From: a virus
Strand: one strand, 5' to 3'
IMG/VR virus record: IMGVR_UViG_3300027754_000129
Coordinates: 1 to 52,193 of that record
DNA: 52,193 bases
This document shows positions 8,325 through 44,799 of this stretch, one piece after another. The notes below the pieces were generated by a model, which saw only the letters and a program-made list of their open reading frames with translations, ran no database searches and was not told the origin of the DNA. A program made the position numbers and the translations under genes. How positions within the stretch are numbered: position 1 is the stretch's first letter; each line of letters begins with the position of its first letter.

Positions 8325-9125
8325 GTGACGAACATAATAGACAGAAAAGTATTAGGAACAGTTTGTCTAATAATTGCAACTTTTCTAAACCCATTTGGGT
8401 TCGACATATTGGTTTTCAAACTGACAGAATTAACAAACAATTATTGGAGTACAATGTACATTCTTTATGGATTGGCATTGGTATCTTTTTCTTTATCTTA
8501 TCTATTCTTTAAGTTAAACAAAAAAATAATTGGAAATACGCTAGTAACAATAGCAATGTTTTTAAACCCACTGGGTTATGATTTAGTGTTATATTCTATT
8601 ACTTTATTGACCAATAACTATTGGATAACAATAAGTATTATGTATGTCTTATCAGCGATATTTTTTGGTTTATTCATTTTTTTATATGGGTTAAACCCTA
8701 TAAAACAAACACATAATAAAATAAAAGCAAACTTTAATAAAATGGGAAAAACGTTTGATGAGTTATATAATGACTTTTTTAATAAAGGTGGTGATAAAAA
8801 GAGTAGAAAGATTGATTCGTTAAGAACTAAAATAACTGACTCTAGTGATGTTGAAAAAGAGATTAAAGATTTGGGTAAACCAGATAAGATTGATTTCTAT
8901 AATGATGGGCATTTGTTTTTTGAGAAAAGAATATGGCATACTAAAAATGGTGATATCGTTAAAATAATTGTAAGTGATGAACCAACATTAAACATGTTAT
9001 CGTTTAAAGAAAAATCATTAGATGAAAAATTAGCAGATGCTGTTGAGAATGAAAATTATGAAAAGGCGTGTCATTTACGTGATTTAATTAACATAGAAAA
9101 GACTAAGAAAATTAAAAAAAGTTAA
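8325..9125 (+). CDS. Membrane protein with duplicated TM hairpin and C-terminal UVR motif, 266 aa
   Basis: The frame starts at GTG 8325. The first half holds four hydrophobic segments arranged as two similar repeats of about 57 residues (…IATFLNPFGFDILVF…TNNYW and …IAMFLNPLGYDLVLY…TNNYW), an internal duplication. The soluble C-terminal half ends with DEKLADAVENENYEKACHL, a UvrB/UvrC-type UVR motif that in ClpC/McsA/UvrB mediates protein-protein contacts. It has no other nuclease or protease domain. The function is unknown; a membrane-tethered adaptor is one possibility. Its end overlaps by 4 bases with the opposite-strand HNH gene. Confidence 0.75.
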   Translation: MTNIIDRKVLGTVCLIIATFLNPFGFDILVFKLTELTNNYWSTMYILYGLALVSFSLSYLFFKLNKKIIGNTLVTIAMFLNPLGYDLVLYSITLLTNNYWITISIMYVLSAIFFGLFIFLYGLNPIKQTHNKIKANFNKMGKTFDELYNDFFNKGGDKKSRKIDSLRTKITDSSDVEKEIKDLGKPDKIDFYNDGHLFFEKRIWHTKNGDIVKIIVSDEPTLNMLSFKEKSLDEKLADAVENENYEKACHLRDLINIEKTKKIKKS

Positions 9126-9526
9126 TTATCTTTTTTAATGACACGATTTACATAACCACATAATGGTTGAAAATTGGTGTAATGGTTAAGCCTAATAATA
9201 TCGTCTTGAGTAATAGCATTAACTAGTGGTTCTATATGGTCAATATCCCAACCATAGTTAATAGTACCATTATACAGTCCTTTATTTTCCCATGTCATCC
9301 ATACTTGACCATTTTCGGTTAAATTATTAGGTGATGACCATTGTTTTTCTAAATGAATCTTAAATTCTTCAAAAGAGCACCCAAGTATTTCTTGTGTTTT
9401 GCTAGTTTTTTTATAACCATTACGTGTAAAACTATTACCAATTAATGTTCTAATTCTAATAGATAAACCAAATAATATATCAATACATTTACGATTTTTC
9501 ACGTATTCTTTTTGTTTTTTATTCAT
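9122..9526 (-). CDS. HNH homing endonuclease, about 134 aa
   Basis: The start MNKKQKEYVK (CAT 9524-9526) is preferred; the frame can extend to 9550. WDIDHIEPL and the later LNHYTNFQPLCGYVNR form the HNH site (D-H … N … H/N). It is a clear paralogue of the - strand gene at 23711-24322: both share ILGCSFEEFK and end in YVNR..K+DN. Its position in opposite orientation, wedged between two genes, marks it as a free-standing mobile endonuclease. Confidence 0.87.
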   Translation of the reverse strand: MNKKQKEYVKNRKCIDILFGLSIRIRTLIGNSFTRNGYKKTSKTQEILGCSFEEFKIHLEKQWSSPNNLTENGQVWMTWENKGLYNGTINYGWDIDHIEPLVNAITQDDIIRLNHYTNFQPLCGYVNRVIKKDN

Positions 9527-9548
9527 ATTTATAATAAAAATAGATATC

Positions 9549-10934
9549 ATGATAAAAAAATTGTTGAATGAGTCATTATTAAGCGTTTATAGGAATGAAA
9601 AATTAAATGAAGGGGCAAAAGACCACCCAGATGCAATAGCTTCTTGTGTGTCTCCTGAGCAATTAGCAAAAGAAATGAATGCTGAATTAAATAGGAAACA
9701 AACTGGTGAAAAAGAAAGAGTTGCCTTGGGAACAAAAAAGGTAATATATCATCAAAAACATATAGAAAATTATTTAACTAAAGTTGATGGTGAGTATGAT
9801 GTTTTCAGATTAAATCCACCAGAAAAAACAAGTACTGGTAAAATAAGCAAAAAACCTAGGAAAGTTAATTATAATCTTATTATAGGTTCATATAATAAAG
9901 AGTTAGGGTTTATACCTAGCGAAGCTGGTTTGAAACTTGGATATGTAAGTGGTGAAAACACTCCTACAGATACTGCAATGGCTGAAACAGCTGTTTTAAA
10001 TGTTGAAAAGTTTAAAAACTTAATAAGTAAAGAACCTAGTAAGATATTTGATAGAAACCCTAAAATGGAGAAAAGTGATAAAGGAAGAAATCAATATACT
10101 ATAAACACTGGACTACCAGCAATAAAAGGAATCATTTTTGATGAAGATGATAATGAATTCAAACATATAAACACATGTCCAGGTGCTGGTGAATGTCAAT
10201 TGGTGTGTTACGCTAGAGGTGGTTTTTATGGTATGAACGATGGTAAGATTATAAAATTAATTAGACGACTTAATCTGCTTTGGAATAATCCTAAACGTTA
10301 TTATCAATTAGTTATGGAAGAGTTAATTAGTGCTGCTAGTTCAAAACAAACACCTAAAGCATCATGGGATTTTAATGATATTGATGATGTTACTACTAAA
10401 AATGAAGGTCCACAATTAGTTATAAGATGGAATGATGCTGGTGATTTTTTTGATGAAACATATTTTAAAATAGCTATGTCTGCAACAAAACAATTAGTTA
10501 AGTTAGGGTATGATGTTAAATCTTATGCATATACCAAACAAGCAAAATATATAGATTTAGCTGGTGAAACTATGGTTATGAATTTTTCTAAAGGGTCTAT
10601 ATCTAGTGAATTAGAAAAAGTTGATTTAGAAAAAGTTAAATTTTCAGATATAGTACCAGAAGATTTATTCAAACAAGTATTCGTTTATAAAGGGCCACAT
10701 ATACAAGTAGATAATGATGACTTACCAATTTTCAAACAAGGTGGAAAAGAATTATTAAGACAACTAATGGCAAAAGAATATAATATTCCGATTGATAGGT
10801 TAAAGTATCAATATGAATTACCACCAAAAGAAAGTGATAAATTTAAATATGATGTAATTGTGTTGCCTAAAGGGGATAGTGACATAAGTGCTCAAAGAAA
10901 TGACGTACATAAAACATTTTTATTAGTACATTAA
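9549..10934 (+). CDS. GP88-like protein with Cys cluster, 461 aa
   Basis: Central motif CPGAGECQLVCYARGGFYG (residues about 215-233) matches the C-x5-C-x3-CYA cluster of the phage/plasmid GP88 family (mycobacteriophage gp88-like), thought to bind a metal or iron-sulfur centre. The conserved WNDAGDFFD and SYAYTKQ segments follow. The N-terminus (MIKKLLNESLLSVYRNEKLNEG) is an extra amphipathic leader ending in LNEG that resembles capsid-targeting peptides. The biochemical activity is unknown. The gene ends at a strong bidirectional terminator. Confidence 0.72.
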   Translation: MIKKLLNESLLSVYRNEKLNEGAKDHPDAIASCVSPEQLAKEMNAELNRKQTGEKERVALGTKKVIYHQKHIENYLTKVDGEYDVFRLNPPEKTSTGKISKKPRKVNYNLIIGSYNKELGFIPSEAGLKLGYVSGENTPTDTAMAETAVLNVEKFKNLISKEPSKIFDRNPKMEKSDKGRNQYTINTGLPAIKGIIFDEDDNEFKHINTCPGAGECQLVCYARGGFYGMNDGKIIKLIRRLNLLWNNPKRYYQLVMEELISAASSKQTPKASWDFNDIDDVTTKNEGPQLVIRWNDAGDFFDETYFKIAMSATKQLVKLGYDVKSYAYTKQAKYIDLAGETMVMNFSKGSISSELEKVDLEKVKFSDIVPEDLFKQVFVYKGPHIQVDNDDLPIFKQGGKELLRQLMAKEYNIPIDRLKYQYELPPKESDKFKYDVIVLPKGDSDISAQRNDVHKTFLLVH

Positions 10935-17732: not shown

Positions 17733-18734
17733 ATGGTTAATTCAATGTTATTCTGTCTTGATGGCAGAGAATACTTAGCAAATAATATAATTTCATTTGT
17801 TAATGATTACACTCCATCAACATCATCACAAGAAAATGTTATCGAACTAGGTTGTCTAAGAAACCAAAAGTTTTCTGATGGTGAACTATGTGTTGATTTT
17901 ATCGATTCCGTTAGAGGTAAACGCATTTATATTCTATCTAGCCCAAATACATCAGATGAGATTATGAAATTAAATCTTGCAATAGATGCTGCTAAACGTG
18001 GTGCTGCTAAAGAGATAATTGCTGTAATACCTTACTTTCCTTATACTCGTCAAGATAAGAAAGACCAATCACGTGGACCTATTGGTGCTAAAGTTGTTGC
18101 TGAGATGATTGAACATCGTGGTGCTACATCAGTTATAACATATGATTTACACGCTGACCAGATACAGGGGTTTTTTAACATTCCAGTTACACATATTGAA
18201 GGTAAAAATGTATTTGATGATTATATCTATCTATTATTAAATGATAGGTCAAATGACATTATTTTATGTGGTCCAGATGCTGGTTCTGGTAAACGTGTTA
18301 AACGAATGAAAGACCAAATATTTGATAGGTATGGTGTTAATCTTAACTATATTATGTTAGATAAGACAAGGAAAGAAGCTAATGTAGTTGATGAAATGGT
18401 TATAATTGGTGATGTAACAAATAAAGATGTTATTATTTTGGATGACATAGTTGATACTGCTGGTACATTATGTAAAGCTGCTGAAGTTTTGATTAATTCT
18501 GGCGCTAAAAGTGTTAGAGCAATTATTAGTCATGGCGTTTTATCTGGACCTGCTTATAACAGGATAGATGATTCGATGTTAACTGAATTAATTATTAGTG
18601 ATTCGTTAGAATCTATGATACATGAAAAAATAATAGTTGCTAGTGTTGCTAAACAAATAGGTATTGCTATTGCTGCTAGTAATAAGGGATTGAGTTATGA
18701 AGGGTTGAGAACTAGTAAAAAAATAATGTCATAA
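17733..18734 (+). CDS. prs: Ribose-phosphate pyrophosphokinase (PRPP synthetase), 333 aa
   Basis: Recognisable Prs: RQDKKDQSRGPIGAK (catalytic flexible-loop region), YDLHADQIQGFF, the PRPP-binding loop VIILDDIVDTAGTL, and ISHGVLSGPA. The length is slightly above the usual 315. It makes PRPP from ATP and ribose-5-phosphate for nucleotide and NAD synthesis. Phages that encode Prs often pair it with NadV to rebuild NAD+ after host NAD-depleting defence; NadV is not in this window. Confidence 0.94.
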   Translation: MVNSMLFCLDGREYLANNIISFVNDYTPSTSSQENVIELGCLRNQKFSDGELCVDFIDSVRGKRIYILSSPNTSDEIMKLNLAIDAAKRGAAKEIIAVIPYFPYTRQDKKDQSRGPIGAKVVAEMIEHRGATSVITYDLHADQIQGFFNIPVTHIEGKNVFDDYIYLLLNDRSNDIILCGPDAGSGKRVKRMKDQIFDRYGVNLNYIMLDKTRKEANVVDEMVIIGDVTNKDVIILDDIVDTAGTLCKAAEVLINSGAKSVRAIISHGVLSGPAYNRIDDSMLTELIISDSLESMIHEKIIVASVAKQIGIAIAASNKGLSYEGLRTSKKIMS

Positions 18735-21411: not shown

Positions 21412-21906
21412 ATGGCTAAAAAGAAAAAAGAACACCTATTAAATAGAGAGATTAGACTATCTGAAGTTAGATTACCTGAAGAAGGTGTTATTAGATTATC
21501 TGAAGCATTAAGATTAGCTGAAGAACAAGATATGGATTTGGTTCTAATGTCTGAGAATAATGGTATTGGTATTTGCCGTATTATGAACTATGAAAAGTTT
21601 ATATATGAAAAAAATAAAAAGCCAAAAAACAAAGCATTGGATGTTAAAGAGATTAAGTTAGGACCAAACACTGCTGAAAATGATTTGACTTATCGCGCCA
21701 AACATATTATTGAGTTTCTAAAAAAAGGTCATAAGGTTAAGATAACATTACAATTTAGAGGTCGTGAAATGATGCATATTGATAAGGGTAAGGCTCTTAT
21801 GCTTAAATTAATTGTTTCTGTTGAAGAATATGGTCTTGCTGAGGGTTTACCAAACATGGAAGGTAAGAAATTAATAGGGTTTATTAAACCAAAACCTAAA
21901 AAATAA
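21412..21906 (+). CDS. infC: Translation initiation factor IF-3, 164 aa
   Basis: Both IF-3 domains are visible: the N-terminal part (REIRLSEVRLPEEGVIRLSE… and YEKFIYEKNKKPKNK linker) and the C-terminal part (VKEIKLGPNTAENDLTYRAK, then GHKVKITLQFRGREMMH). The family length is about 170-180 aa. IF-3 controls start-codon and initiator-tRNA selection and ribosome dissociation. A phage-encoded copy is uncommon and could bias host ribosomes to phage mRNAs, including leaderless ones; that effect is inference. Confidence 0.94.
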   Translation: MAKKKKEHLLNREIRLSEVRLPEEGVIRLSEALRLAEEQDMDLVLMSENNGIGICRIMNYEKFIYEKNKKPKNKALDVKEIKLGPNTAENDLTYRAKHIIEFLKKGHKVKITLQFRGREMMHIDKGKALMLKLIVSVEEYGLAEGLPNMEGKKLIGFIKPKPKK

Positions 21907-23710: not shown

Positions 23711-24322
23711 TTAATTATCTCTTTTAACAAATCTATTAACATAACTACATAAAGGCTGAAGATTGGTGTAATAATTAAGTCTATATACATCATCTTCAGT
23801 CTTTGCTGTTATTATGGGTATTATATGGTCAATATCCCATGTCTTGTTTGGTTCAACAATACCATCTTTAGGGTTACCATAATTATCCCAATTCATCCAT
23901 GGTTCCCATAATAATTCTAAATGTTGTTTAAATTCTTCGAAAGAACATCCTAAAATTTTATAAGTGTTTGATTTTTTTAAATAACCATTTTTACTAATAA
24001 TATTACTTATTGAAGTTCTTAAATTTGATTTTAATTTAAAATTTATATCAGTTGAACGTTTATTTTTATTATAATTAGAAATTTTATAATTATTATTTTC
24101 TTTCCATTTATCTCTAGATTTTTTAACTTTATCTTTATTATTTTTTCGATATTCACTCGAATATAATCTCATTTTTTCTTTTTCTTCTTCAGTTAAAATT
24201 TTCTTAGTTCTAGCTTTTTGATAATTTAATTCTTTTTCTTTGTTTTTTATATAATACTCTTTACGATATTCTTTAATTTTATCTTTATTATTTTCTCTAT
24301 ATTCTTTACGTTTATTTTCCAT
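23711..24322 (-). CDS. HNH homing endonuclease with basic repeat N-terminus, 203 aa
   Basis: The C-terminal half has ILGCSFEEFKQHLELLW, WDIDHIIPI and LNYYTNLQPLCSYVNR, the same HNH layout as the paralogue at 9122-9526. The N-terminal half is a run of YR-x-NNKDK/EYRKEYY repeats typical of the DNA-binding linker of HNH homing enzymes; the usual N-terminal Cys knuckle is absent. It overlaps by 11 bases the ribbon-helix-helix gene that precedes it on the same strand. Confidence 0.85.
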   Translation of the reverse strand: MENKRKEYRENNKDKIKEYRKEYYIKNKEKELNYQKARTKKILTEEEKEKMRLYSSEYRKNNKDKVKKSRDKWKENNNYKISNYNKNKRSTDINFKLKSNLRTSISNIISKNGYLKKSNTYKILGCSFEEFKQHLELLWEPWMNWDNYGNPKDGIVEPNKTWDIDHIIPIITAKTEDDVYRLNYYTNLQPLCSYVNRFVKRDN

Positions 24323-24573: not shown

Positions 24574-26571
24574 ATGAAAGAAGAAAAACAAATCAAGTTA
24601 GGAGATATAGTAGAGGGTAAGATTAGTATGAATACTAGTGGAACTGCTTATTTTGTTAATCCAAATTTAAAAAAAGACATTTATTTAAGTAAAAATAATG
24701 TAAACAAAGCGTTACACTTAGATACTGTAAAAATTAAAATAATTAGAGGTAATGGCCGTAATATTGAAGGTCAAGTAGTTGAGATAGTAGAAAGATTCAG
24801 GACTGAATTTGTGGGTACTATACAACTAAGTGAAAGATATGCATTTTTCGTACCAGATAGCAATAAATTACCAGTAGATTTCTTTATCCCTTTATCTAAA
24901 ACGCTAGATGCTAAAAATGGTCAAAAAGTTGTTGTTAGACTTACCGAATGGAAACATGAAGCCAAAAACCCTAATGGAGTTGTTGTTAAAATAATTGGTG
25001 ATTCTGGTGAACATGAGACAGAAATACATAGTATCCTTGAAGAGTATGGTTTACCATATGATTTTACTGAAGATATTATTGCTGAGGCAGATGCTATACC
25101 TACAGAAATAACACAAGATGAGATAGATAAGCGTAGAGATATGAGAAACATACTTACATTCACAATTGACCCACATGACGCTAAAGATTTTGATGATGCT
25201 TTGAGTGTTGAATGGGTAAATGGTGAATTATTTGTTGGTGTTCATATTGCTGATGTATCTCATTATTTAATTCCAGAAACTGATTTAGATAAAGAAGCAT
25301 ATTCTAGAGGAACTAGTGTTTATCTTGTTGATAGATGTGTCCCTATGCTTCCAGAGAACTTGTCTAATGTACTTTGTTCACTAAGACCTAACGAAGATAA
25401 GCTTTGCTTTTCAGCCGTCTTTAAACTTGACCATAATGGTAATGTATTAGAAGAGTGGTTTGGTAGAACTGTTATCAATTCTGACCATAGGTTTACATAT
25501 GAAGAAGCACAAGCAATAATTGAGGTGGGTAAACTACCTAAAGATGCTATCGCTGAAGGTGAAATCTTAATATTTGAAAAATCTGGGTTAGGTTCTGTTG
25601 TTGGATGGGATAAAGCAACCAATTTAGGTAAAGCTATGTTGAATTTAGATAAGATTGCGAAGAAAATGCGTAAGGTACGTTTACAAAAAGGTTCTATCTC
25701 ATTTGATAAACATGAAGTTAAGTTTAAATTGGACGAAAATAACAAACCAGTTGACATACTATTCAAAGTAGGTAAAGATTCTAATAAACTTATTGAAGAA
25801 TATATGTTATTAGCTAATAGACGTGTTGCTCAATATGTTAATAGCCGTCAATATCCAATGGTTAATAGAGCACATGAAAAACCTAATGAAGAAAAGTTAA
25901 CAAATCTTAAAACGTTTATAACTCAATTCGGGTATAACATTAAAATAGATACGCCAGAAGAAACAACCAAAACACTTAATCAGTTATTGATAGATATAAA
26001 AGGTAAACCTGAAGAGGATATGATTGCAAATTTGGTTGTCAGGACTATGCAAAAAGCTAATTACGCCACCACCAATATTGGACATTATGGTTTAGGTTTT
26101 AAAAATTATGCGCATTTCACATCACCAATAAGAAGATATCCAGATGTTATCGTACATAGATTACTTAATTCTTATCTTGAGAATGGTTCTAAATTTGCTC
26201 CAAACATATCAAAACTAGAAGCTAATTGTAATTACTTATCTGAAAGAGAAAAGAAAGCTCAAAAAGCTGAACGAGATTCAATCAAATATATGCAATGTAT
26301 CTATATGACAGATAGAGTTGGTAAGATTTATAAAGGAATGGTTACGTCAGTAGCTGAATACGGATTATTTGTTACTATAGATGAAAATGGTTGTGATTGT
26401 TTGATAAGGTTAAGTAGTATTACTGGCACATGGAGTGCAGATATTAATAACTATTGTATCAGAGAATATAACACAAACAACACAATTAGATTAGGTGACC
26501 AAATTACAGTTGTTATTAGCAAAGTAGATGTTGAAAAGAAAAACATTGATGCAACTATAATTAATTTATAA
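24574..26571 (+). CDS. rnr: Ribonuclease R, 665 aa
   Basis: Domain order: two N-terminal cold-shock/OB domains (AYFVNPNLKKDIYLSKNNVN; YAFFVPDSNKLPVDFFIP), the RNB catalytic domain with TIDPHDAKDFDDALSV (the Asp cluster of RNase II/R), GVHIADVSHYL and SPIRRYPDVIVHRLL, and a C-terminal S1 domain (YKGMVTSVAEYGLFVTI). It degrades structured RNA 3' to 5' and, with SmpB, clears mRNA from stalled ribosomes. It is slightly shorter than host enzymes (about 700-800 aa). It has its own promoter with almost no leader. Confidence 0.94.
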   Translation: MKEEKQIKLGDIVEGKISMNTSGTAYFVNPNLKKDIYLSKNNVNKALHLDTVKIKIIRGNGRNIEGQVVEIVERFRTEFVGTIQLSERYAFFVPDSNKLPVDFFIPLSKTLDAKNGQKVVVRLTEWKHEAKNPNGVVVKIIGDSGEHETEIHSILEEYGLPYDFTEDIIAEADAIPTEITQDEIDKRRDMRNILTFTIDPHDAKDFDDALSVEWVNGELFVGVHIADVSHYLIPETDLDKEAYSRGTSVYLVDRCVPMLPENLSNVLCSLRPNEDKLCFSAVFKLDHNGNVLEEWFGRTVINSDHRFTYEEAQAIIEVGKLPKDAIAEGEILIFEKSGLGSVVGWDKATNLGKAMLNLDKIAKKMRKVRLQKGSISFDKHEVKFKLDENNKPVDILFKVGKDSNKLIEEYMLLANRRVAQYVNSRQYPMVNRAHEKPNEEKLTNLKTFITQFGYNIKIDTPEETTKTLNQLLIDIKGKPEEDMIANLVVRTMQKANYATTNIGHYGLGFKNYAHFTSPIRRYPDVIVHRLLNSYLENGSKFAPNISKLEANCNYLSEREKKAQKAERDSIKYMQCIYMTDRVGKIYKGMVTSVAEYGLFVTIDENGCDCLIRLSSITGTWSADINNYCIREYNTNNTIRLGDQITVVISKVDVEKKNIDATIINL

Positions 26572-28030: not shown

Positions 28031-28069
28031 TGTGGACCGTATAAGGTCAATAAAATAAAAATAATAGTT

Positions 28070-28100
28070 TTGGATAATTAAAAAGTATTTTATATATTTG
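28070..28100 (+). promoter_or_regulatory. Promoter of the DUF6745-like operon
   Basis: TTG 28070-28072, 20-nt spacer, TATATTTG 28093-28100; gene start at 28129. A small GACC…GGTC hairpin lies at about 28034-28048 without a T tract. Confidence 0.8.
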
Positions 28101-28128: not shown

Positions 28129-29136
28129 ATGAAAACAAAATTAACAAAAAAAGAGGAACAATTAACAGATGTTGTTAGAGAAGAATGGCTTAATTTAGCA
28201 TTCAATGAAAACACTAAAGGTATTAATACTAAATTGTATGAAACAGGTATTGAATGGCTTTATAAAAGATTTCTAAACCTACCAAAGCCTGAAATTGTTT
28301 ATTGTGATGGATTAATTGAAGCTGTTATTAAAATAACATTGGTAAAAGATTTCAATAAAGAAATTAGTGATTATGACCCTAAAATGATTGAGGATTATAA
28401 TAACAATACCTTACCAAAAGATTTTATGACTAAGTTCAAAGAGAACTATAATCTTAAATCAACTTATTGTGGTTGGTCCAATTTTGGTTGGGTTTCTTTT
28501 TATGATTATTTTACAAGGATAAAAGTTATCAATCATGATGATTTTAATAATTACATCCAAATTATTAAATCAAATGTTTTTGAATCTTTTGAATTTGAAA
28601 ATGTTGTATTTGCTGTTCAACCACCATCTGTAATAAATATAAATGATAGTGGTCAGTTACATAATACATCGGGATGTGCATTATCTTTTAACGATGGTTC
28701 TGAATTTTATTTTATCAATGGTCGTGAAATTGATAAGAAATTAGTTAATGGTGATTTTACCAAAGAAGATTTCTTAAACGAAACCAATGAGGATACAAGA
28801 GGCGCTATGTTTGAAATTATCGAATCTAGAGATGAAGGTTCTATGATGGAATTTTTAGAAGCTTATGAGTATGGTAGAGATGAGATAACCCATACAAATG
28901 GAGATGTTGAAACTCTTATCTTATATAGAACAAAAGAAACTTTTCCTGAATTAAAAGATATTAATGGTGATAGTGATGTTCCATTATGTTGGTTAAAGTT
29001 AGTATGTCCATCTACAGGTCAGAATTATTTGATATCAACAGATTCAACATTTAAAACACCTATTGAGGCTGCTAAATATCATAGACCAGAAGAAGTTCCT
29101 TTTGATTTGGCTTATTCTTGGTTCAGTAGAAATTAA
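28129..29136 (+). CDS. DUF6745-like protein lacking its internal repeat block, 335 aa
   Basis: Features I associate with DUF6745 proteins appear in order: VREEWLNLAF near the N-terminus; IVYCDGLIEAV; the aromatic block GWSNFGWVSFYDYF; VVFAVQPPSVININDSGQLH followed by NTSGCALSFNDGSEFYFING (the 'RP…D..GRLH…GPA..Y.DG…Y..hG' core); NEDTRGAMFEIIE; and PIEAAKYH near the end. In actinobacterial homologues, as I remember them, a long DSLRDSLWDSL-type repeat lies between the CD-x-P/L block and the GW block. Here that position holds a short non-repeat linker, and the repeats are separate genes downstream. The function is unknown. Confidence 0.7.
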   Translation: MKTKLTKKEEQLTDVVREEWLNLAFNENTKGINTKLYETGIEWLYKRFLNLPKPEIVYCDGLIEAVIKITLVKDFNKEISDYDPKMIEDYNNNTLPKDFMTKFKENYNLKSTYCGWSNFGWVSFYDYFTRIKVINHDDFNNYIQIIKSNVFESFEFENVVFAVQPPSVININDSGQLHNTSGCALSFNDGSEFYFINGREIDKKLVNGDFTKEDFLNETNEDTRGAMFEIIESRDEGSMMEFLEAYEYGRDEITHTNGDVETLILYRTKETFPELKDINGDSDVPLCWLKLVCPSTGQNYLISTDSTFKTPIEAAKYHRPEEVPFDLAYSWFSRN

Positions 29137-29149
29137 TATAAGATAAATT

Positions 29150-29347
29150 ATGAAACTAGGTAAACCATTGGTATATGAATTTTTACCATATATTCGTGCT
29201 GATATACAATGTGAAATTGGTGATTTAATAAATGATAATGTTGATATCTTAATAAATGCTACTGCAAGCTCAGAAATATATGATTGTTTTACCGAATTTA
29301 TTGTGGTTGAACTACTATTACCAATAGAATATTCTATATTTGAATAA
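29150..29347 (+). CDS. Small protein sharing the (M)xLGKP start of the repeat genes, 65 aa
   Basis: Begins MKLGKPLVYEFLPYIRADIQ. The M-x-LGKP opening is shared with the tandem repeat genes at 29838-30841, but the remainder is only faintly repetitive (…INDNVDILINATASSEI) and acidic. It may be a diverged or capping member of that family. It lies between the DUF6745-like gene (13-base gap) and a new promoter. Confidence 0.6.
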   Translation: MKLGKPLVYEFLPYIRADIQCEIGDLINDNVDILINATASSEIYDCFTEFIVVELLLPIEYSIFE

Positions 29348-29351
29348 TAAT

Positions 29352-29382
29352 TTGCTTTTTATATTAATAATTAATATATTTG
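29352..29382 (+). promoter_or_regulatory. Bacteroidota-type promoter
   Basis: TTG 29352-29354, 20-nt spacer, TATATTTG 29375-29382; it drives the gene at 29421 and probably the repeat genes after it. Confidence 0.82.
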
Positions 29383-29420
29383 TATTATAAATAAATTTAA
29401 TAATTAAATAAAAAAAAACC

Positions 29421-29807
29421 ATGGAAAAGTTAATTTTTACAAATGAGTTTAATGCTCACCAAGGCGACTGCCAATTACATTCAATCTCCAAATTACCAAC
29501 AACAGCAAAAAAAGTTCAAAAAACTTTCTTCGCAAAATCAGAAAAATCTGGTCATGCTCATGCTCTATGTGGTGACTATGAATTATTTGAAGATGAAAAA
29601 GGTTCAAGATTTATTGTGGTAGGTCATGATGGTGCAACACTTAATCATACAGGTTATAAAAATCTTACAAAAGAATATTGGGATACCAATAAAGTATTGC
29701 CTGTGGCTGACCATAAACCAACCCTTTTAAAAATGGGTATCTATCATGTGGGTATTCAAAGAAGAATAAATCCTTACAAAGCTGTTTGGGAGCGTGTACG
29801 TGACTAA
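29421..29807 (+). CDS. Conserved protein with HQGD…GHAHALCGD motifs, 128 aa
   Basis: Segments AHQGDCQLHSI, KSGHAHALCGDYELFED, DGATLNHT and HKPTLLKMGIYHVGIQRR resemble a family I recall next to DUF6745-type genes in other bacteria (HQGD-v-l… GH-x-H… at-lxH… p-x-L-x-pG-y-x-v-x-x-QREY-p). The conserved His and Cys residues suggest a metal site, perhaps in a cupin-like or beta-barrel fold. The activity is unknown. It precedes the five repeat genes. Confidence 0.65.
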   Translation: MEKLIFTNEFNAHQGDCQLHSISKLPTTAKKVQKTFFAKSEKSGHAHALCGDYELFEDEKGSRFIVVGHDGATLNHTGYKNLTKEYWDTNKVLPVADHKPTLLKMGIYHVGIQRRINPYKAVWERVRD

Positions 29808-29837
29808 TTCAATAAATAATAAATAATAAATAATATT

Positions 29838-30026
29838 ATGATTCTAGGTAAACCAGTAAGTGATTCAGTAAGTGATTCAATATGGAATTCAGTAAATATT
29901 TCAGTAGATAACTTAGTATGGAATTCAGTAAGTATCTCAATATGGAATTCAGTAAATGATTCAGTAAATAATTCAGTATGTGATTCAGTATGTAATTCAG
30001 TAGGTAATTCAATAGAAGATAAATAA
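29838..30026 (+). CDS. Tetrapeptide-repeat protein A, 62 aa
   Basis: After MILGKPV the whole protein is 13 four-residue units of the type x-[DN]-S-[VI] (SDSV SDSI WNSV NISV DNLV …) ending in EDK. The codons form an approximate 12-bp repeat (such as tcagtatggaat). Ser and Val every four residues could form a regular solenoid or an extended strand. It starts 30 bases after the HQGD gene and is the first of five tandem paralogues. Confidence 0.8.
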   Translation: MILGKPVSDSVSDSIWNSVNISVDNLVWNSVSISIWNSVNDSVNNSVCDSVCNSVGNSIEDK

Positions 30027-30027
30027 T

Positions 30028-30237
30028 ATGATAGGTAAACCAATAAACATCTCAGTACATGACTCAGTAAGGAATTCAGTGGATAACTTAGTATGGAATT
30101 CAGTAAGTGATTCAGTAGAGAACTTAGTAAGTACCTCAGTATGGAACTCAGTATGGGGCTCAGTATGGAAATTAGTAAAAGCTCCAATATATGACTTTGT
30201 AAGTAACTCAGTAAAGCAATCATTAACTAATAAATAA
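30028..30237 (+). CDS. Tetrapeptide-repeat protein B, 69 aa
   Basis: Opens MIGKPI and continues with 15 tetrads (NISV HDSV RNSV DNLV WNSV …), ending in TNK. It starts one base after gene A. The aromatic Trp units recur irregularly (WNSV, WGSV, WKLV). Late tetrads (KAPI, YDFV, KQSL) are more degenerate than the first ten. Confidence 0.8.
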   Translation: MIGKPINISVHDSVRNSVDNLVWNSVSDSVENLVSTSVWNSVWGSVWKLVKAPIYDFVSNSVKQSLTNK

Positions 30238-30241
30238 TATT

Positions 30242-30442
30242 ATGACACTAGGTAAACCAGTAAGTGATTCATTACATAACTTAACATATAACTCAGTATG
30301 GTTCTCAGTAGATAAATCAGTAAGGGGTTCAGTAAATAATTCACTCTGCAATTCAGTGGAGAATTTAATGTGGGATTCAATAGATAATACAGTATGGTTT
30401 CCAGTAAGAAATTTAATAGGTATATCAATATATGATAAATAA
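30242..30442 (+). CDS. Tetrapeptide-repeat protein C, 66 aa
   Basis: MTLGKPV followed by about 14 tetrads (SDSL HNLT YNSV WFSV DKSV RGSV …) and a YDK end. More substituted than A and B at the Ser position (WFPV, RNLI). Its last codons overlap the ATG of gene D at 30432, so translation may be coupled. Confidence 0.8.
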   Translation: MTLGKPVSDSLHNLTYNSVWFSVDKSVRGSVNNSLCNSVENLMWDSIDNTVWFPVRNLIGISIYDK

Positions 30443-30632
30443 TATCACTCTAGGTAAACCAGTAAATATTTCAGTATATAACTCAGTATATGATTCAGTA
30501 CATAATTCAGTAAGTATTTCAATAAGTGATTCAATAAATAATTCAATAATTGATTCAATAAATAATTCAGTATTCAATACAGTAAATACTTCAGTATGGA
30601 ATTTAGTAAGTGGTTCAATAAATAAGAAATAA
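30432..30632 (+). CDS. Tetrapeptide-repeat protein D, 66 aa
   Basis: MINNITLGKPV then 13 tetrads (NISV YNSV YDSV HNSV SISI SDSI …), ending in NKK. The start overlaps gene C by 11 bases; an N-terminal extension of four residues comes from that overlap. Ile replaces Val in the middle tetrads. Same head and tail layout as the other paralogues. Confidence 0.8.
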   Translation: MINNITLGKPVNISVYNSVYDSVHNSVSISISDSINNSIIDSINNSVFNTVNTSVWNLVSGSINKK

Positions 30633-30640
30633 ATAATATT

Positions 30641-30841
30641 ATGATTCTAGGTAAAATAATATTCAAACAAATAGATAAATCAATATCTGATTCAACATAT
30701 AAATTAGTACATGACTCAGTAAGTAATTCAATATGGGATTCAGTAAGTGTATCAATAAGTAACCCACTATGGAACTCAGTAAGTCTATCAATAAGTAACT
30801 CAGTAGGACTATACACATATAAATCAATATATAATAAATAA
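30641..30841 (+). CDS. Tetrapeptide-repeat protein E, 66 aa
   Basis: MILGKIIFKQI then 13 tetrads (DKSI SDST YKLV HDSV SNSI WDSV …), ending in YNK. The head is the most diverged (KIIFKQI for KPV). It is the last of the series; the gene at 30861 is unrelated. Confidence 0.78.
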   Translation: MILGKIIFKQIDKSISDSTYKLVHDSVSNSIWDSVSVSISNPLWNSVSLSISNSVGLYTYKSIYNK

Positions 30842-31172: not shown

Positions 31173-31177
31173 AATAT

Positions 31178-31295
31178 GGTCAGGTAGCTCTAATGGTTAA
31201 GAGCAGGTGGTGAGGGAAATGTATTGATACCCAACCCATCGGACACAGCTAATACAAGTAAAGTGTAAATACAGGTTCGAATCCTTGTTCTGACA
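31178..31295 (+). ncRNA. tRNA-like RNA 1 with expanded anticodon and variable regions
   Basis: Acceptor strands GGTCAGG (31178-31184) and TCTGACA (31289-31295; first pair mismatched), D arm GCTC-TAATGGTTAA-GAGC (31187... to 31204), and T arm with ACAGG/CTTGT around TTCGAATC. GGTGG (31206-31210) pairs with CCATC (31236-31240), but the enclosed loop is 25 nt instead of 7. About 30 nt follow before the T arm, including ACAC…GTGT. At 118 nt it is about 40 longer than a normal tRNA. A canonical anticodon cannot be assigned. Confidence 0.6.
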
Positions 31296-31300
31296 ACTAA

Positions 31301-31378: not shown

Positions 31379-31463
31379 AGTCAGGTGGCAGAAGTTGGAA
31401 ACGCTCAAGAGGGGTTAGTGTGTGGAGCACGCTTGGTTATTGGTTCGAATCCAATCCTGATTA
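31379..31463 (+). ncRNA. tRNA-like RNA 2 with abnormal anticodon region
   Basis: Acceptor AGTCAGG/CCTGATT (31379-31385 / 31456-31462; one G-T) and discriminator A; a T arm ATTGG-TTCGAAT-CCAAT (31439-31455) that is perfect; a D-arm-like GCAGAAGTTGGAAACGC as in Leu tRNAs. The region between has AGTGTG-TGGAG-CACGCT instead of a standard 5-bp/7-nt anticodon arm. If GTGGAGC is taken as a loop, the anticodon would be GGA, but the geometry then requires an oversized D-side loop. Total length 85 nt. Confidence 0.62.
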
Positions 31464-31473
31464 CGCAAAAAAC

Positions 31474-43071: not shown

Positions 43072-43440
43072 ATGAATAAAGTGTTTTTAATTGATATCGA
43101 TGGGACAATATGTGAAGATATCAAAAATGAGGAATCTCATTTATTCCCAACAGCTAAAGTCTATGCGGACTCGCTTAATATCATCAATAAATGGTATGAT
43201 GAAGGTAATGTAATTACTTTCTTTACAGCTAGAGAAAGCAAAGATAGACAAGTAACCGAAACATGGTTAAAAGAAAATGGTTTTAAATACCATGGACTAG
43301 TTATGGATAAACCTAGAATAAAAGATGGACAAGAATATGTTTGGATTGATAACAGAAAAGTTAGAGCCATAACATATCTAGGCACTTGGTCCGAACTAAA
43401 AGAAGTTCAAGCAAACATACAAGTTTTTGATAATGAGTAA
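43072..43440 (+). CDS. HAD-superfamily phosphatase, 122 aa
   Basis: LIDIDGTICED (motif I, Asp nucleophile), FFTARESKDRQVTETWLKEN (motif II region with T-A-R) and a late WIDNRKVRA acidic segment. This resembles small nucleotidase-like HAD proteins common in phages. The substrate is unknown. Its last codons overlap the SmpB ATG (43433). Confidence 0.82.
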   Translation: MNKVFLIDIDGTICEDIKNEESHLFPTAKVYADSLNIINKWYDEGNVITFFTARESKDRQVTETWLKENGFKYHGLVMDKPRIKDGQEYVWIDNRKVRAITYLGTWSELKEVQANIQVFDNE

Positions 43441-43876
43441 ACAAATATGTGTTAATAAGAAAGCCTTTTTTGAGTATGAAATACTTGAGAAACATATTGC
43501 TGGTATCCAATTGGTTGGCTCTGAAGTTAAATCCGTTAAGAATGGTAAAGTATCTATCGTTGAAGCATATTGCTTCATAAATGATAATGAATTGTTTATT
43601 AAAGGAATGCATATCACCGAACATAAAGAAGGTGGTAAGTATAATAACCATAAACCAATTAGAGATAGGAAACTGCTTATGAAAAAGAAAGAAATCATTA
43701 AATTACATGAAAATGTTTCTCAAAAAGGCTTGACTATTATACCATTAGAGGTTATAATATCAAAAACAGGCTTCATTAAAATCCAAATTGCTTTAGGTAA
43801 AGGTAAAAACCAATACGATAAAAAACAAACAATTAAACTTCGTGATTTAGATAGAGAATTAAAAAATAATATCTAA
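43433..43876 (+). CDS. smpB: SmpB, tmRNA-binding protein, 147 aa
   Basis: NKKAFFEYEILEKHIAGIQL then GSEVKSVKNGKVSIVEAYCF is the SmpB barrel signature, and the C-terminal tail GKGKNQYDKKQTIKLRDLDR is the decoding-centre tail. The length fits the family (about 150). I chose ATG 43433; a TTG two codons earlier is possible. SmpB delivers tmRNA to stalled ribosomes and recruits RNase R, also encoded here (24574). No tmRNA gene was recognised in the window. Confidence 0.93.
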   Translation: MSKQICVNKKAFFEYEILEKHIAGIQLVGSEVKSVKNGKVSIVEAYCFINDNELFIKGMHITEHKEGGKYNNHKPIRDRKLLMKKKEIIKLHENVSQKGLTIIPLEVIISKTGFIKIQIALGKGKNQYDKKQTIKLRDLDRELKNNI

Positions 43877-43926: not shown

Positions 43927-44799
43927 ATGAAAAGCTTTAAAATAGTTGCTAGACCAACAAATAGAGAAAATGACTCATTTAAACAATACCTAAAAAATAT
44001 ATCATCTATTGATATGTTATCTAGAGAAGAAGAAACTGAATTGGCCTTAAAATCATCATCAGGTGATGAAAAAGCTATAAATGAATTGGTTAGAAGAAAC
44101 TTAAGATTCGTTGTTAGCGTTGCCAAATCATATGCTTCAGCATCAAACCCATTAGAAGATTTAGTTAATGAAGGTAATGTTGGTCTTATAATAGCCGCCA
44201 AAAAGTTTAAACCAAATATGGATGCTAAATTCATATCATATGCTGTTTGGTGGGTTAGAAAAGTAATAATGGAATACCTATCTAAACACGGTAGAACAGT
44301 TCGTATCCCAGCTAATAAACTAAATAGCCTATCTAAATTAGATAAGAAATTTAATGAACTAGAACAAAGAGAAGGCAGAATAATAGATATCAACGAAGTT
44401 ATTAACGAACTATCTGGTGAACTACCTAATGATAGCCTAGAATTCTTAATACTATTAAATTCATATAACATGGATTCATTAGATAGAGAAATTGGTGGTG
44501 ATGATAATACAACAACATTAGGCGATTTAATTACCAGCGATTCATATAAAGATACTGACCACCTAGTTAATGATAACGACATCAAAAATGAAATCGGTAA
44601 ACTAGTTAATAAACTTAATGATAAAGAAAAAAGAATCATTATAGCATCATATGGATTAGATGGTAGCTCACCAATGACATTGGGTGAAATAGGTGAAGAA
44701 ATGGGTGTTACTCGTGAAAGAATACGTCAAATAAAAGATACTATACTTAGAAAACTTAAATCTAAAATAGTAAATTCTAATTTAGTATATCAACTATAA
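43927..44799 (+). CDS. Primary-type sigma factor (RpoD/SigA-like), 290 aa
   Basis: Region 1.2/2: SFKQYLKNISSIDMLSREEE, NLRFVVSVAKSYASASNPLE, EDLVNEGNVGLIIAAKKF, FISYAVWWVRKVIMEYLSKH. Region 3 follows RIPANKLN, and region 4 contains MTLGEIGEEMGVTRERIRQI. The size (about 290 aa) and sequence are those of Bacteroidota RpoD rather than of phage T4 gp55 types. It would direct host RNA polymerase, probably to promoters of the TTTG/TAnnTTTG form seen throughout the window. It likely competes with or replaces the host sigma. Confidence 0.93.
   Translation: MKSFKIVARPTNRENDSFKQYLKNISSIDMLSREEETELALKSSSGDEKAINELVRRNLRFVVSVAKSYASASNPLEDLVNEGNVGLIIAAKKFKPNMDAKFISYAVWWVRKVIMEYLSKHGRTVRIPANKLNSLSKLDKKFNELEQREGRIIDINEVINELSGELPNDSLEFLILLNSYNMDSLDREIGGDDNTTTLGDLITSDSYKDTDHLVNDNDIKNEIGKLVNKLNDKEKRIIIASYGLDGSSPMTLGEIGEEMGVTRERIRQIKDTILRKLKSKIVNSNLVYQL

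Follow-up and report, generated by a model that had tools for sequence, protein, structure and literature searches.

The locus lies in a stretch of 52,193 nucleotides of viral DNA (IMG/VR record IMGVR_UViG_3300027754_000129), analysed whole and called the window here. A gene for a DUF6745 protein, the core, is followed by a small gene with an LGKP leader, a gene for a conserved HQGD...GHAH protein, and five tandem genes, A to E, whose products carry tetrapeptide repeats (Table 1). The core, the HQGD protein and the five repeat genes are open reading frames at the positions where the initial annotation had placed them. Genes A to E are separated by gaps of 1-8 bp, and C and D share an 11-bp overlap. 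Their products had been described as almost wholly x-[DN]-S-[VI] tetrads. The register is real: 54 of the 80 tetrads keep [ST][VIL] in register, 0 of 20,000 shuffles reached the observed tetrad score for any of the five genes, and the serine codon in clean units is TCA in 51 of 51 cases. The strict motif does not hold to that extent, as about one third of the tetrads violate it, often through replacement of S by L.

Table 1. Coordinates of features in the window and of the repeat-gene arrays in its closest relative, the jumbo virus G001
Feature	Coordinates	Strand	Basis
Window: promoter-like motif TTTG-N20-TAnnTTTG, upstream of core gene	28069..28100	+	Motif scan
Window: core gene, divergent DUF6745, 335 aa, without cis repeat	28129..29136	+	ORF list, Pfam, family profile
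Window: sixth small gene, M-x-LGKP leader, zero tetrads	29150..29347	+	ORF list, tetrad scoring
Window: promoter-like motif TTTG-N20-TAnnTTTG, upstream of HQGD gene	29351..29382	+	Motif scan
Window: HQGD...GHAH partner protein, 128 aa, phrog_27831 family	29421..29807	+	Family profile; all-beta model, pLDDT 85
Window: tetrad-repeat gene A, LGKPV leader, 12 in-register tetrads	29838..30026	+	ORF list, tetrad scoring
Window: tetrad-repeat gene B, 10 in-register tetrads	30028..30237	+	ORF list, tetrad scoring
Window: tetrad-repeat gene C, 10 in-register tetrads	30242..30442	+	ORF list, tetrad scoring
Window: tetrad-repeat gene D, 13 in-register tetrads, overlaps end of C	30432..30632	+	ORF list, tetrad scoring
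Window: tetrad-repeat gene E, 9 in-register tetrads	30641..30841	+	ORF list, tetrad scoring
Window: PRPP synthetase	17733-18734		Pfam
Window: IF-3	21412-21906		Pfam
Window: RNase R-like RNB nuclease	24574-26571		Pfam
Window: SmpB	43427-43876		Pfam
Window: sigma-70 factor	43927-44799		Pfam
G001: leader/tetrad genes	133772-137395
G001: leader/tetrad genes	148197-150772
G001: leader/tetrad genes	155639-160891

The motif TTTG-N20-TAnnTTTG, promoter-like and taken to be of the Bacteroidota type (the host group is likewise an assumption), occurs 27 times in the window against 12.7 expected from shuffles. It precedes the core and HQGD genes, and the window scan found none inside the A to E array, so these genes are probably co-transcribed with the HQGD gene. 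Elsewhere in the window, Pfam matches include IF-3, an RNase R-like RNB nuclease, SmpB, a sigma-70 factor and PRPP synthetase, and this translation and ribosome-rescue gene set is unusual. A tRNA-like sequence at 31176-31300 (GGTCAGGTAGCTC...GGTTCGAATCC...CTGAC) apparently contains an insertion; the only tRNA called by ARAGORN is a tRNA-Leu at 31379-31464. Two minus-strand open reading frames between plus-strand genes (9122-9550 and 23711-24322) have HNH-like motifs (WDIDHI...LQPLC) and, judged by eye, are perhaps homing endonucleases.

The initial annotation assigned the core to DUF6745 from its conserved blocks. By the Pfam model alone (PF20530) this assignment is missed, with 23.5 bits (E=3.9e-5) against a cut-off of 27. 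A family profile built from 44 relatives with the window left out matches residues 3-270 with E=4.7e-30, and the core homologue of G001, a 282-kb jumbo virus that is the closest relative of the window among the matches listed, is 77% identical and, at 27.9 bits, lies above the Pfam cut-off. By sequence, then, the window core is a divergent DUF6745 protein. It has the core domain and N-terminal part in common with other members (PF20530; phrog_31813), only a remnant of their GPA/WHG motif (GCA...DG...ING), and a short linker, at about residues 73-112, without a tetrad array. Used singly as a query against viral contigs, the window core retrieved no relatives, and an alignment of nine diverse cores yielded no usable conserved stretch. 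Both the DUF6745 and HQGD families are PHROGs without known function, and our literature search found no paper that mentions DUF6745, consistent with the earlier suggestion of an undescribed multi-component system.

The HQGD protein of the window is also divergent. On its own it reaches only E=0.016 against phrog_27831, of which 34 of 38 aligned members match the QGD family, and it matches a family profile built without it with E=1.3e-12. Invariant or near-invariant residues of the family are QGD, GHxH, a second and third His, and a final Asp. Among the matches listed, a QGD gene occurs within 300 bp of the DUF6745 gene, on the same strand and on either side, at 168 of 184 loci; the window has this neighbour as well. 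At one locus (L196:103-2103) a single protein comprises DUF6745, an alanine-rich repeat region and a QGD domain. The gene families and their linkage are thereby demonstrated, and the linkage and the fusion together are strong evidence that core and QGD share a joint function. Pairs of DUF6745 and QGD genes without tetrads occur in actinobacterial chromosomes, some of them beside STM4013-4015 genes. Nine actinobacterial DUF6745 loci are near genes of the STM4013-4015 type (L035, L065, L066, L083, L084, L089, L114, L127 and L128), as is the DUF6745 gene of a Streptomyces plasmid (L020). Neither fold search nor profile search found a PDB relative for the core or the predicted all-beta QGD protein, and the top matches of a fold search of BFVD were only DUF6745 members or unnamed proteins.

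Relatives were collected by scanning bacterial and viral collections with a DNA motif for H...GPA....DG.....WHG, which gave at least 120 loci in each. These scans favour members with the WHG motif, and many of the loci are metagenomic. Our own profile finds DUF6745 in 253 of the 261 collected sequences; L003 and L004 proved to be chance pattern matches without the module. The initial annotation had placed long repeats at the linker of homologues, a claim that would have fallen had none been found and that proved correct. About 70 DUF6745 proteins among the matches listed carry 6-69 tetrads of the form x-[DAGS]-[QSA]-[VL] in one block, in the linker that joins the helical N-terminal part to the core domain. 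In L199, for example, the tetrads occupy residues 80 to about 170. The tetrads of 57 distinct cis arrays begin with G, R or W (position 1) in 82% of cases and end with V or L (position 4) in 98%; most have D, A, S or G at position 2, and the residue at position 3 is Q, S or A. One locus, L191, has an [x][x]AT variant of the tetrad.

Many DUF6745 members thus carry the repeat in cis, whereas in the window it takes the form of separate genes, and the window is not alone in this. Among the matches listed, repeat-less cores in about 15 viral lineages adjoin tandem tetrad open reading frames of 50-130 aa. When the comparison is limited to viral loci with an intact core N-terminus, tandem tetrad genes accompany 25 of 46 listed cores without cis tetrads and 1 of 34 with them (Fisher p=4.4e-7). 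The sole locus that seemed to combine cis and trans repeats, L174, was rejected as an antisense artefact, and L220, one of the 25 trans loci, is actually a split cis gene. On a tree of 70 non-redundant cores, exchange between cis and trans is demonstrated at least six times. The near-exclusivity and the repeated switching support, at the level of sequence, the proposal that the repeat is supplied in trans; there is no direct evidence of physical contact between core and repeat. Neither form was found at 21 of the 46 listed viral loci without cis tetrads. One of these, L152, has small tandem genes with decayed repeats, and at such loci arrays may lie beyond the range that was fetched, as they do in G001.

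In G001, about 45 small LGK-leader/tetrad genes form three arrays (Table 1) that lie 11-38 kb from the core; the five genes of the window may therefore be only part of its repeat set. An unrelated 170-kb virus, G002, encodes two DUF6745 proteins, one QGD protein and a large mixed LGK-leader array of tetrad and non-tetrad genes, many of them joined by overlapping stop and start codons. Far from its arrays, at 61057-61205, G002 has a separate near-perfect 12-bp tandem repeat (TCTGTATCACTG). The recurrence of the split form and the near-constant HQGD partner go beyond the initial annotation, as does the counter-defence precedent for tetrapeptide repeats considered below.

Hypervariability of the arrays is demonstrated by pairs of near-identical contigs, whose differences fall solely or chiefly within tetrad genes. 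Over 9,605 bp, L166 and L170 have no mismatch, and all that separates them is one 12-bp deletion within a tetrad gene. L212 and L236 differ by five substitutions, by length changes of 12, 194 and 1 bp, and by little else. The pairs L187/L219 and L169/L219 have zero mismatches, with 146 and 182 bp gained or lost in or beside tetrad genes. Short-read assembly can err in repeats, which is a caveat for differences in array length. Within arrays, variation is confined to few sites. L163 (5537-7054, minus strand) has 41 units of 12 bp in which 10 of 12 bases are invariant; the exceptions are base 1, with A, G or T (encoding R, G or W), and base 5, with A or C (encoding D or A). L146, whose protein is 63% identical to that of L163, carries an array of 36 units; these belong to another type and vary only at bases 1-2. 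A constant framework with two highly diverse sites implies that those sites are selected for or targeted. The two-base variation of L163 is a possible sign of targeted diversification, and its pattern at bases 1 and 5 is unlike the random adenine replacement of a diversity-generating retroelement. Across all cis arrays the residues at position 1 follow one another in near-random order, and duplicated blocks are present in L163 and a few other arrays.

So, what might such a system do? The reading that we favour, tentatively and by analogy, is a tunable counter-defence system in which the specificity repeat has been split into a multigene repertoire. In such a system a single DUF6745 core and a single QGD/GHxH partner would act together with a set of tetrapeptide-repeat proteins that has diversified. 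Specificity, or 'tuning', is inferred to reside in the repeat; its array sits within the core in many relatives, and in the window lineage it would have split off as a tandem gene family, such that one core could work with many variants simultaneously. An inferred core-QGD complex, acting as effector or clamp, would pair with a repeat protein of suitable length and residues to neutralise a host or prophage defence, and repeat number and the two variable residues per tetrad would change fast through 12-bp gains and losses.

The counter-defence role is itself inferred, from the mycobacteriophage protein Tweety gp54. This protein has 40-48 tetrapeptides with variation restricted to two residues (PMC2884959), and a rise or fall in repeat number lets escape mutants overcome the defences of the prophages Phrann or MichelleMyBell (PMC9262239, PMC8549241) by a mechanism described as obscure (PMC8549241). 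The likeness lies in phage-borne 12-bp/4-aa units with a near-invariant framework, two variable residues and changes in copy number. Dedrick et al. 2017 is said to be the primary report on Tweety counter-defence. A long tetrapeptide array with two variable residues is thus found in both; the window spreads it across five genes, in more degenerate form. Tweety gp54, however, is a single gene with the repeat [GWQ][SY]AA and no QGD neighbour, and its flanking domains have no detectable homology to DUF6745 (E 0.2-0.5) and none to QGD. The functional analogy therefore rests on the repeat alone, and we do not class the DUF6745 system as a member of the Tweety gp54 type. Positional equivalence was also considered and rejected, since only WhiB genes were common (six open reading frames in five loci).

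A search with defence and anti-defence models gave no convincing match, the best for the core being a restriction enzyme model (E=0.001). Neighbours at the viral loci, among the matches listed, include DUF932 in 14, ERF in 9, YqaJ in 6 and gp32 in 5; they place the system among early and recombination genes, which fits counter-defence but does not prove it. The actinobacterial pairs without tetrads count against the counter-defence reading, which leaves them unexplained. A bolder formulation, which we consider somewhat unlikely, is that of a previously undescribed class in which a conserved effector pair, DUF6745 and QGD, would take its programming from tetrapeptide-repeat proteins that are hypervariable and interchangeable. 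The genome would encode these either in cis or as a library of up to about 45 genes, and the recognition code would comprise two residues per tetrad.

Several alternatives concern the repeat itself. The 12-bp units could be non-coding satellite DNA with chance open frames, and such units do leave other frames open, as in the 139-aa open reading frame on the minus strand opposite the start of the array (29804-30223). This is barely tenable: the LGKP leader is kept through different synonymous codons in the window, G001, G002 and the high-GC L242, 38 of 80 pairs of adjacent tetrad genes share an overlap of 1-4 bp, and the arrays replace an in-frame protein repeat. TALE repeats, which are helical, 34 aa long and read DNA by a known code, are likewise near-identical units with two variable residues each. 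With no homology claimed, tetrad positions 1 and 2 might similarly read a nucleic acid, glycan or peptide as a linear target, with trans arrays as a library of recognisers for a core-QGD effector. The two-site variation of L163 and L146 and the near-random order of G, R and W at position 1 would suit such a modular surface, yet we judge it unlikely, as there is neither a target nor binding data. In the AlphaFold2 model of L199, built with 45 sequences, the core reaches a pLDDT of about 95 and the tetrads only about 50-65, so the fold of the tetrads is not established, and a lag analysis of tetrad arrays found no periodicity that would indicate the coil geometry of a solenoid.

The same low confidence is what would be expected of a linker or scaffold that is disordered or phase-separates, in which W, R and Y would be stickers between spacers and which would set distance or assembly and not specificity. 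The composition is indeed rich in W, R and Y, and the Tweety authors remark on a resemblance to unstructured proteins (PMC2884959). Against this stand the near-constant position 3 within each array and the V or L at position 4, which suggest an ordered repeat, and a linker role strikes us as rather unlikely. Hypervariable arrays and large paralogue sets might also mark a component of the virion or of receptor binding that has diversified, with repeats doing the work of diversity-generating systems, and the Tweety repeat has been likened to Bordetella phage VR2 (PMC2884959). That seems very unlikely given that the recurrent identified neighbours are recombination and early genes with no tail gene among them, and that bacterial chromosomes also carry DUF6745-QGD pairs.

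Under the favoured reading of tunable counter-defence, the DUF6745 system may function as an adjustable weapon against bacterial anti-phage defences, a suggestion that comes from what has been published on Tweety gp54, an unrelated phage protein whose repeat is of the same kind (PMC2884959, PMC9262239, PMC8549241). So far Tweety gp54, whose counter-defence activity is tuned by the number of its repeats, has stood alone as a puzzle. Should DUF6745 systems act alike, the phenomenon would widen from one protein to a widespread family found across viruses and bacterial genomes, and the conserved, purifiable partner and the natural split versions would allow repeat and core to be mixed and tested separately. 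The variation of two sites in otherwise identical units would offer a clean system for studying how phage recognition diversifies.
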